DNA from: Lutibacter sp. B1
GTDB taxonomy: Bacteria; Bacteroidota; Bacteroidia; Flavobacteriales; Flavobacteriaceae
NCBI RefSeq assembly: GCF_012524075.1
Contig: NZ_JAAZUI010000008.1
Coordinates: 1 to 64,000 of the forward strand
Reading direction: 5' to 3'
Length of the DNA: 64,000 nucleotides
The translations under genes were made by a program, and so were the position numbers. The notes under the pieces were generated by a model. The model searched no databases and was not told the DNA's origin. It saw only the letters and a list, made by a program, of their open reading frames with translations. Below, one piece after another: positions 11,564 to 44,152 of the stretch; positions within the stretch are counted from its first letter, which is position 1; each line of letters begins with the position of its first letter.

Positions 11564-11702
11564 TTTTTCATTTTTAATGCTATCAAATATAGCTAAACAA
11601 GTGTTAAAGTTTTTATAAATAAAGTTTATTTTGAAACAAGTGCTGTTACAAAATGGCACACAATTTGTCTTAACATTATAAAAACAACTAAATTTTACTA
11701 AA

Positions 11703-42090: not shown

Positions 42091-42831
42091 ATGGGAAATT
42101 TTGCAAAATGGTTAGGAGCCGGTTTAGGATTTACGCTAGGAGGAACTATAGGTAGTATTATTGGTTTTACTTTAGGTAGTTTTATAGATGGTTTAACAGT
42201 TGAAGATATTCAACAAGAAAGAGATTATAGAGCGGCGGCTGCAAACACACAAGCCGGTGATTTTGAAATAAGTCTTTTAATTTTAGCGTCAATAGTTATA
42301 AAATCTGATGGGAAAGTTGATGAGCGTGAGTTAAATTATGTGCGTACTCATTTTAAAAGAATGTATGGTGAGCAACGAGCAAATCAAGCATTTAAATTAT
42401 TTAAAGGTTTTATTAAAAACAATAAAGTTTCTACGTATCAGGTTTGCGTTCAAATTCGTCAAAATATGACGCATGCTTCTCGTTTACAGTTGATTCATTT
42501 TTTGTTTGGTATCGCCAAAGCCGATGGATATGTGAATGAATATGAGGTAAATTCAATAAAAACTATTGCAGGGTATTTATATATCAATCAGTATGATTTT
42601 GAATCAATTAAAGCAATGTTTTATGATAGTACAGACAGTGCTTATCAAATTTTAGAAATTGAAAAATCTGCTACGGATGACGAAGTAAAAAAAGCCTACA
42701 GAAAAATGGTTAAAAAATATCATCCTGATAAACTGCAACATTTGGGAGAAGAACACTTAAAAGGAGCTGAAGAAAAATTCAGAGAAGTTCAAAAAGCCTA
42801 TGAACATATACAAAAAGAACGAGGAATATAA
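42091..42831 (+). CDS. TerB-like and DnaJ-domain co-chaperone (DjlA-like)
   Basis: A 246-residue protein. An N-terminal glycine-rich hydrophobic segment ([18 protein letters not shown], then [16 protein letters not shown]) probably embeds in or associates with the membrane. A TerB-type helical domain covers about residues 60-170. A C-terminal J domain (about 182-246) begins [20 protein letters not shown] and has the HPD triad at 211-213 that stimulates Hsp70 ATPase. The order matches DjlA-type proteins. Two tandem non-coding units follow it. Confidence 0.9.
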
Positions 42832-42848
42832 TTTTTTTCACATTGAAT

Positions 42849-42965
42849 GTGACCTAATTATAAAACAGGTGTCATATATATAAATGTTAGATAGGGTAAA
42901 TATTTGGCCCCAAAAGTTAAAACACCCCTAATTAAGCGCTTCTTTTTGGAGGCGCTTTTTATTTT
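42849..42965 (+). ncRNA. Putative small RNA unit 1 with terminator
   Basis: GTGACC at 42849 and TGTCATA at 42870 (15 nt between) are followed by a non-coding stretch containing GGCCCCAAAAGTTAA and ACACCCCTAATTAAG. A hairpin then follows (arms from AAGCGCTTC at 42934 and GGCGCTT ending 42957), with a T-run. It is homologous to unit 2 directly downstream. The GTGACC/TGTCATA pair may be a promoter of non-housekeeping type; a transcript of about 75-80 nt is predicted. It could be a decayed 3' UTR duplication instead. Confidence 0.45.
42934..42965 (+). terminator. Terminator of unit 1
   Basis: AAGCGCTTC(T) pairs with (G)GAGGCGCTT with two G-U pairs and a T-rich loop, followed by TTTTTATTTTT. Confidence 0.8.
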
Positions 42966-42990
42966 TAAAGAGATAAAAATATATTTTTTT

Positions 42991-43118
42991 GTGACCAATT
43001 TAAAAATAGTGTGTCATAAGAATAATTAGTATGAAAAGGAAAAGGAAATACTTGTACCCAAAGGCTAATTACCCCAAAGGTTAAGTTGAGCGTCTCAAAT
43101 TTGAGACGCTTTTTTTAT
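42991..43118 (+). ncRNA. Putative small RNA unit 2 with terminator
   Basis: GTGACC at 42991 and TGTCATA at 43012 have exactly the same 15-nt spacing as in unit 1. The body carries ACCCAAAGGCTAA and ACCCCAAAGGTTAAG in direct repeat, aligning with the C-rich boxes of unit 1. It ends in a perfect 22-bp palindrome (43089-43110) and T6. No credible reading frame spans it. Predicted transcript about 90 nt. Confidence 0.45.
43089..43116 (+). terminator. Terminator of unit 2
   Basis: Arms AGCGTCTCAAA and TTTGAGACGCT form a perfect palindrome followed by six or more T's. The minus side lacks a T-run, so it acts on the plus strand. Confidence 0.85.
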
Positions 43119-44005
43119 TTTAAATACAACGCAATACTTTGTGGTCCTTCTAAAATTGTTTTAACAATTTGCATTGTACCATCATTGTGAGAAATAATAT
43201 GCCATTTTATTAAAGAGATTTGCATGTTTTCTATTTCAATACCCGTTATTGATCTTGGATGTATACAGCTACCATCATTAAAATAAGGTAATTCATTTGG
43301 ATTAGGAAAACGTGGGCGGTGCGTGTGTCCGGCAATAATCATTTGATTATTGTTAGCTAAAATCCATTTTTTCAATCTTCTTTCAACTTTAATTAATTCA
43401 ATAAAATTTTTAGCAGGACTTGTAGGGTCTTTAATTCCTATTATTTGAAGAGGTTTCCATAAAAATCGAACTAAAAATCGACTCCATTTCCATAAAACAT
43501 AATTAAAAAAATCTGCTTGGTGTCCATGTATAAGTAGTATATTTTTGTCTAAACCTTCAGGTTCTAATAGTATACTTTCTTCAAATGAGATTCCTTTTAA
43601 AAAATCTTTTTCAGTAGCAGAAATTTTATCAAAGTAGGTGTCAAATAAATTACTTGCTGTTTTTGGGTTATTTAAAATCATATCATGATTTCCCCAAAGC
43701 ATATGCAATCTGTTTTCCAAATGAAACTCACGCAATAGCATAAAAATATCTTTATGCGCATAAAAAATTTCATTAAAATTTCTATTTTCCCAAAGTTCAA
43801 CGCCATCACCTAGTTCTATATATGTATATCCTTTTTCGAAATAATTACGTAAAGCGTGGTAATAAATATTTCTGTTTTTTACAAAATCATCGGCAAAGCT
43901 GTTGTCGCCTCTATGGCAATCACTAAATAAAATATATTTTGATTGCTTGTTTAAAGGTAACTTTTTTGCTTTTTTAAAAGAATTAGATATAATTTGTTGA
44001 ACCAT
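43115..44005 (-). CDS. Calcineurin-like metallophosphoesterase
   Basis: 296 residues from ATG 44003-44005 (MVQQIISNSFKKAKKL). The dimetal motifs run in order: FSDCHRGDNS (family D-x-H), ELGDGVELW (G-D), LWGNHDMIL (GNHD/E), LLIHGHQADFF (G-H) and IIAGHTHRPRF (GHxH). The group includes UDP-diacylglucosamine pyrophosphatase-like and nuclease-like enzymes; this one is longer than LpxH and its substrate is uncertain. A longer opening to 44110 uses TTG and adds 35 residues of poor quality, so it is not preferred. Confidence 0.87.
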   Translation of the reverse strand: MVQQIISNSFKKAKKLPLNKQSKYILFSDCHRGDNSFADDFVKNRNIYYHALRNYFEKGYTYIELGDGVELWENRNFNEIFYAHKDIFMLLREFHLENRLHMLWGNHDMILNNPKTASNLFDTYFDKISATEKDFLKGISFEESILLEPEGLDKNILLIHGHQADFFNYVLWKWSRFLVRFLWKPLQIIGIKDPTSPAKNFIELIKVERRLKKWILANNNQMIIAGHTHRPRFPNPNELPYFNDGSCIHPRSITGIEIENMQISLIKWHIISHNDGTMQIVKTILEGPQSIALYLK

Positions 44006-44152
44006 ATTTTTAGGTAAAAAATAATTCTGATTTTTTATTGAAAGTAAAACTACAAATTTAAGCGTTTTCTCATAGTTATTTTTTTGCAATTTATGAAATG
44101 ATATTTTCAATAAAATATGTAATTTCGCAAACTAATTGAATTATGGGTAAAA

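Follow-up and report, generated by a model that had tools for sequence, protein, structure and literature searches.

Tandem noncoding units of Lutibacter as predicted small RNA genes of an extracytoplasmic function sigma factor regulon

Results

The window analysed here is a stretch of 64,000 nucleotides from Lutibacter sp. B1 (Flavobacteriaceae; assembly GCF_012524075.1, contig NZ_JAAZUI010000008.1, positions 1 to 64,000), and the element under study is a pair of tandem noncoding units on its forward strand, which we interpret as probable genes of small RNAs (sRNAs) controlled by an extracytoplasmic function (ECF) sigma factor. The units lie between a gene for a DjlA-like protein with TerB and DnaJ domains (42091-42831, forward strand), which serves as syntenic anchor, and a convergent gene for a calcineurin-like metallophosphoesterase (43115-44110, reverse strand). 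Both assignments come from Pfam (TerB and DnaJ; Metallophos above its cut-off); the NCBIfam DjlA model gives the TerB-DnaJ protein 110.8 bits, under its cut-off of 162.

Unit 1 (42848-42962) begins 16 nt after the TerB-DnaJ stop codon with an ECF-type promoter, TGTGACC-N15-TGTCATA (42848-42876), followed by a 57-nt body (42877-42933) that contains an AGGG run and the C-rich boxes CCCCAAAAGTTAA and CACCCC, and by an intrinsic terminator made of a AAGCGCTTC hairpin and a T-run (42934-42962). Unit 2 (42990-43118) repeats this arrangement with an exact match to the same promoter pattern (42990-43018), a 69-nt body (43019-43087) with the C-rich boxes ACCCAAAGG and CCCCAAAGGTTAA, and a GAGCGTCTC hairpin whose T-run (terminator at 43088-43118) reaches the end of the metallophosphoesterase reading frame, where the stop codon ends at 43115. 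The original prediction, made from the letters of the window, had described two homologous tandem units with shared boxes and a terminator each, and this is borne out by a mean column identity of 77% in the alignment, promoter and terminator included. The pattern that it gave, GTGACC-N15-TGTCATA, is exact in both units (42849-42876 and 42991-43018), but the motif starts one base earlier, with TGTGACC. Two matches in the window at up to two mismatches are unremarkable (14 of 100 shuffles reach two), yet both matches are perfect. The boxes CCCCAAAAGTTAA (42908-42920) and CCCCAAAGGTTAA (43072-43084) are present as well; when one mismatch is permitted, two such matches likewise turn up in 14 of 100 shuffles.

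No Rfam family was found in the window, the units included, at the gathering threshold (release 15, 4227 covariance models, presumably with Flavo-1 among them). The best match below threshold, sau-6072 (24.2 against 50 bits), was judged to be chance like the other sub-threshold matches, and ARAGORN found nothing in the window.

The same motif precedes one ECF sigma factor gene of the genome (labelled G000, 3.42 Mb; other G and L numbers denote compared genomes and loci). This gene (G000:C150:28349-28912) is followed by an open reading frame (ORF) of 71 aa and then by a gene for an MscS-type channel, and it is, by our reading, divergent from an rpoD-like gene. Its product of 188 aa matches Pfam Sigma70_r2, Sigma70_r4_2 and Sigma70_ECF above cut-off, which places it among the ECF sigma factors. 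Its best match in the PDB is SigW, and the NCBIfam SigX model NF007222 scores it at 94.7 bits, below the cut-off of 194, so that it does not count as a SigX. Close orthologs (E < 1e-50) are present in 15 of 38 genus genomes; the motif lies 48-56 nt 5' of the aligned start in 14 of these 15, with 0-2 mismatches, and 15 remote paralogs have at least three. ECF matches occur in 88 of 249 family genomes, and when the 29 best-scoring loci among them are added to the 15 of the genus, every one of the 44 ortholog loci has the motif. In 41 the spacing is fixed and there are no more than two mismatches; in the other three (L097, L145, L169), judged by eye, the spacer differs by one base. An MscS homolog follows on the same strand, 189-248 nt 3' of the ECF gene, in 43 of the 44 loci, and the 71-aa protein has a recognisable homolog in 26. 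The aligned ECF start codon is TTG in 41 of 44 loci (L083-L097, L144-L172), a weak start that may keep the level of the protein low.

These comparisons strongly support, at the level of sequence, that the ECF gene is autoregulated through this motif and that the motifs of the window are promoters of this sigma factor; the ECF type of these promoters was a guess that the original prediction had itself called speculative. Indeed, the window promoters have two boxes at a fixed spacing in common with the sigma gene's own promoter, as members of an ECF regulon should. As a separate observation, another sigma-70-like gene lies 3' of the TerB-DnaJ gene at L176, L179, L183, L194 and L196, with an AGACC or TGACC box upstream; read by eye, it is perhaps another autoregulated ECF-type gene.

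Across 40 genomes (our own included) the exact pattern has 10 sites against none for the reversed control. Three of them are in our genome: the two window units and a site 23 nt 5' of the ATG of a CAP-domain protein. With up to one mismatch, our genome has six sites (control 2), namely the two units, the ECF gene, the CAP gene, a DUF937 gene and a doubtful one in the window (11644-11672), where TGTTAC-N16-TGTCTTA lies shortly 5' of an ATG and may mark a regulon member or be chance. The relaxed pattern TGTGAC-N16-TGTCWTA has 51 sites in 19 of the 38 genus genomes (reversed control, 2). By our own reading of gene classes, which Pfam confirmed on one OmpA, one DUF937 and one MscS example and which otherwise goes by resemblance, these sites precede noncoding units of this locus (14), the ECF gene (8), OmpA-family genes (6), DUF937 genes (4), noncoding units of a second kind (3), MscS (2) and CAP (1) genes, and other or unclear sequences (13). 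A variant with the spacer one or two bases too long gave no sites and five in the control, and was discarded. Taking genus and family together, sites precede genes for MscS, MscL, OmpA-family, LysM, CAP, DUF937, DUF2853 and M48-peptidase proteins, a set that points to envelope or osmotic stress. From the end of the second box to the start codon the distance is 19-64 nt at the ECF, CAP, OmpA-family, DUF937 and MscS sites. In Lutibacter oricola (G009, L016) two ECF-type promoters stand in tandem, 58 bp apart, 5' of an OmpA-like gene, the farther one 118 nt from the start.

A noncoding stretch ending in a terminator follows 26 of 91 distinct sites (those of the G164 array, described below, included), compared with 60 when 2000 positions were drawn at random in the loci studied. 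The filter is crude, and the count is conservative because it misses unit 1 of the window, probably on account of a 41-aa TTG frame. The second kind of noncoding unit, with the same type of promoter (two mismatches in G000), was seen at L010 (G000:C77:153802-153829, flanked by what seem to be isocitrate dehydrogenase and murQ genes), L057, L079 and L053. A CCCC box, a AGCGAGAA...TTCTCGCT terminator and GGTTAG are common to all of these except L053.

Motif sites accompany the sigma factor. They are present in 15 of 15 ECF-bearing Lutibacter genomes against 4 of 23 ECF-less ones (p 2.5e-7), or 14 of 15 against 4 of 23 when sites at the ECF gene itself are left out (p 4.0e-6); these p values and those that follow ignore phylogeny. 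The ECF-less genomes with sites are G013, with three, and G020, G040 and G047, with one each. In G013, which lacks a close ECF ortholog, one perfect motif (L058) is followed by a stretch that resembles the ECF leader (CCAAT...TTTTTGAAA); it looks like the relic of an ECF gene that was lost. In the wider family, among 36 genomes that we chose (18 with and 18 without the ECF gene), TGTGAC-N16-TGTCTTA occurs in 15 of the ECF-bearing (31 sites, nine of them at the ECF gene) and in one of the ECF-less (one site; control, 2), which becomes 13 against one without self sites (p 4.1e-5).

The same holds for the units. At the TerB-DnaJ site, promoter-bearing units are found in 13 of the 15 ECF-bearing genomes, and an intact one in 1 of 22 others (p 3.8e-7; the 23 ECF-less genomes minus G049, in which no TerB-DnaJ ortholog was found). 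There are two units in G000, G009, G011, G023, G041 and G046, and one in G014, G017, G019, G021, G044, G048 and G051. Imperfect promoter boxes occur in G014, G017, G021, G044 and the second unit of G046; the first unit of G023 has lost most of its boxes. The two ECF-bearing genomes without units are G008, in which an internal stop interrupts the ECF frame, and G002, where the ECF protein is 53% identical; among the ECF-less, G013 has the intact unit and G043 one with a decayed promoter. Units are present in three of the 80 named loci that span the neighbour gene (L237, from an uncultured Lutibacter; L240; and L241, from L. oricola DSM 24956). The 400 nt surrounding the two units of G009 recur in L241, and those surrounding the units of G011 in L237, which identifies the genus of the compared genomes as Lutibacter. 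L282 and L298 have one match each, left uncounted, with no unit evident in the stretch inspected.

A covariance model (R1) was built from 11 units, with unit 1 of the window included and unit 2 left out. Over the 38 genomes it gives 13 matches below 1e-3, all at the TerB-DnaJ site. Eleven are the seeds, among them window unit 1 (E=3.4e-6), and the two others are G000 unit 2 (43022-43116, E=1.2e-4) and G046 unit 1 (6.0e-5). Weaker matches, from 1e-3 to 0.1, fall partly on units at this site (G043, G048, G051, G019) and partly at dispersed positions, for which we make no claim. The absence of a reading frame, as stated in the original prediction, very nearly holds: there is a short ATG frame in each of the window's units (15 and 17 codons), but ATG frames of at least 10 codons occur in only 8 of 36 unit rows scanned, a number that includes two G164 scan artefacts (an over-long row, one of the 8, and a site outside the array). 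The units thus have, at least in their letters, the marks of a trans-acting sRNA gene, with a promoter of their own, an intrinsic terminator and no conserved ORF. The paired small RNAs that had been proposed gain support from this recurrence with the ECF gene and from the lack of an Rfam match.

In the seed alignment the terminator helix varies while its pairing is kept, with two pairs changed on both sides. We also tried a structure of three helices, an outer one (ATTAGTT with GATTAAT), one between the G-run and a C-run, and the terminator, read from the same sequences on which it was scored. Paired cells amount to 94.6% with this structure and to 91.9% in shuffles; its covariation score is 0.274 against 0.218, with 0 of 500 shuffles as high, and three of its pairs are changed on both sides, a number reached by 56 of 500 shuffles. 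We consider the terminator structure supported by the alignment, and the other two helices plausible only.

Beyond Lutibacter, one genome of another genus (G164, ECF protein 70% identical) has the same pair of neighbour genes, and the interval between them holds ten promoter sites in 1.5 kb (L174, reverse strand from 2260; L232). After each site comes a hairpin with a T-run. Its units 3 and 4, and 8 and 9, are near copies of each other, and others differ inside (a GGGG hairpin, CCCC-rich bodies, a AGTTAGTTTAGA type). Elsewhere the same promoter leads into terminator-ended noncoding stretches in G055, G081, G112, G122, G185 and G192 (two in tandem), with G214 as a further case judged by eye. 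Units of other genera at L206, L211 and L220 have GGGG runs, in the opposite sense to the C-rich boxes of Lutibacter.

Discussion

We propose that the two units of the window are probably tandem genes of trans-acting sRNAs that belong to one envelope- or osmotic-stress regulon of the ECF sigma factor. Upon such stress, the autoregulated sigma factor would direct RNA polymerase to TGTGAC-N16-TGTCWTA promoters, and at this site two terminator-ended RNAs of roughly 80-100 nt, with C-rich boxes, would be made. They would most likely base-pair with mRNAs, probably for envelope proteins, and repress them, which would give a negative arm to a sigma factor that alone only activates. The promoter class, the autoregulation, the gene content of the regulon and the conservation of the units with their variation in copy number are supported by the comparison of genomes, and a function as sRNAs is likely. 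Transcription, the stress signal, base-pairing, targets, the sign of regulation and an RNA-binding partner are what we infer beyond this.

Several results weigh against this proposal. The RNA bodies are highly variable between units, RNAalifold on the 11-unit seed alignment gives the terminator only, and two-sided changes are absent from the outer helix. C-runs are hardly enriched (CCC in 24 of 25 bodies, with a mean of 20.7 and a maximum of 24 in dinucleotide shuffles). The searches for targets found none, seed complements in the window being at chance (52 against 54.2 expected) and the genome-wide list of seed plus ATG unspecific (71, control 39). Four ECF-less genomes (G018, G020, G047, G052) retain the C-rich hairpin and terminator with no recognisable promoter. 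Also, the neighbour gene was present in 28 of the 29 ECF-bearing genomes of other genera that were searched, and sites lie beside it (up to 500 nt scanned) in G164 alone of these 28. Finally, the p values for the association with the sigma factor take no account of phylogeny.

One alternative is that the cassettes are promoter decoys or sinks that bind the ECF-polymerase or act as a transcriptional load, buffering sigma activity while their bodies have no function. In its favour, conservation is highest in promoter and terminator, the bodies have diverged, above all among the ten units of G164, and copy number ranges from 0 to 10. Yet the bodies remain recognisable across Lutibacter, as the two matches of R1 outside its seed indicate, GTTAG occurs in 14 of 25 bodies against a shuffled mean of 2.7 (homologous bodies, hence not independent), and a decoy does not obviously need a terminator in each unit; we regard it as rather unlikely. 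That the units are instead the 3' end or terminators of the TerB-DnaJ transcript, the ECF promoter inside being of little consequence, would fit the short distance from the TerB-DnaJ stop to the first promoter and the four ECF-less genomes with promoterless hairpins. However, one terminator would be enough for such a transcript, whereas this locus has two units and G164 has ten, every one with a promoter and a terminator of its own, and promoter-bearing units track the sigma factor (13/15 against 1/22), so we hold this to be improbable.

A DNA-binding activator for which the two boxes are half sites is hard to credit as the reader of the motif in place of the sigma factor: box spacing is fixed, the second box keeps the promoter-like distance to start codons given above, and the motif marks one ECF gene at every ortholog locus and is absent at the 15 remote paralogs. 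We give still less credence to the idea that each unit encodes a stress-made microprotein (MLDRVNIWPQKLKHP and MKRKRKYLYPKANYPKG), perhaps on a dual-function RNA. An ATG frame closes before the terminator in both window units, but such frames are not conserved among the units scanned, the two peptides have no evident sequence in common, and the element GTTAGTGATTAGTTAA, which several units carry, is interrupted by stops in all three frames.

The production of terminator-ended RNAs from a sigma factor's own promoters is a known way to add repression. In enterobacteria, the sigmaE-dependent sRNAs MicA, RybB and MicL form the noncoding repressor arm of the envelope-stress ECF sigma factor. The likeness to our units lies in this arm, which here is deduced from the promoter class; the enterobacterial sRNAs are single genes at separate sites, whereas ours are tandem cassettes, and we claim no sequence relation. 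Other likenesses are by description. The LhrC1-5 sRNAs of Listeria are multicopy, have redundant CU-rich sites and act in envelope stress (PMC4132741); C-rich boxes and multiple copies are shared with our units, but LhrC is driven by the LisRK two-component system and not by an ECF-type promoter. The FopS sRNAs of Bacteroides are paralogous, with 14 copies at multiple loci and sigmaABfr promoters, repress SusC-like transporters, and are described together with RbpB (PMC11697453). Both families are paralogous sets in Bacteroidota with a 5' stretch and then a terminator hairpin, whereas ours occupies one tandem site with ECF-type promoters and matches no Rfam family at gathering score. In Flavobacterium psychrophilum, the putative regulatory RNA Rfp11 is listed 3' of an ECF-type promoter, SM6 (PMC9723704); the boxes here are TGTGAC and TGTC, and the genes envelope and osmotic ones.

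The gene neighbourhood of our sigma factor recalls SigX of Pseudomonas aeruginosa. There, cfrX (an 84-aa protein) and cmpX (an MscS-type channel) adjoin sigX and are in its regulon, hypo-osmolarity raises sigX expression and SigX is involved in oprF transcription (PMC7641640). ECF gene, small protein and MscS-type channel are alike in the two organisms, although cfrX-cmpX lie upstream of sigX and the small ORF and MscS gene downstream of the ECF gene here, and NF007222 scores below cut-off; our sigma factor may work like SigX, and we do not file it as a member. We found no paper treating a flavobacterial ECF sigma factor with MscS or a Lutibacter small RNA with a sigma factor, nor a classification paper joining ECF sigma factor and mechanosensitive channel in Bacteroidetes, in a search that subscription papers mostly fell outside.

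The array of G164 suggests, tentatively, that the cassettes are a source of new sRNAs: tandem duplication (0, 1, 2 or 10 copies) under one ECF sigma factor would keep promoter and terminator while the body diversifies, so that new stress sRNAs evolve at a single site. G-rich and C-rich bodies in this array would even allow pairing between sister RNAs. In such bacteria Shine-Dalgarno sequences are reported to be absent, namely in F. psychrophilum (PMC9723704).

ECF-driven sRNAs are a known kind, and the copy-variable tandem array of cassettes is the new aspect. To our knowledge, few sRNAs have been characterised in the phylum. The promoter pattern could be used to seek more sRNAs of this regulon in sequenced Flavobacteriaceae, and arrays of 1, 2 and 10 units offer a natural series for studying how new sRNAs arise and whether it is copy number or seed diversity that counts. 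If our proposal is true, an ECF sigma factor widespread in flavobacteria would gain a promoter, target genes and a noncoding arm.
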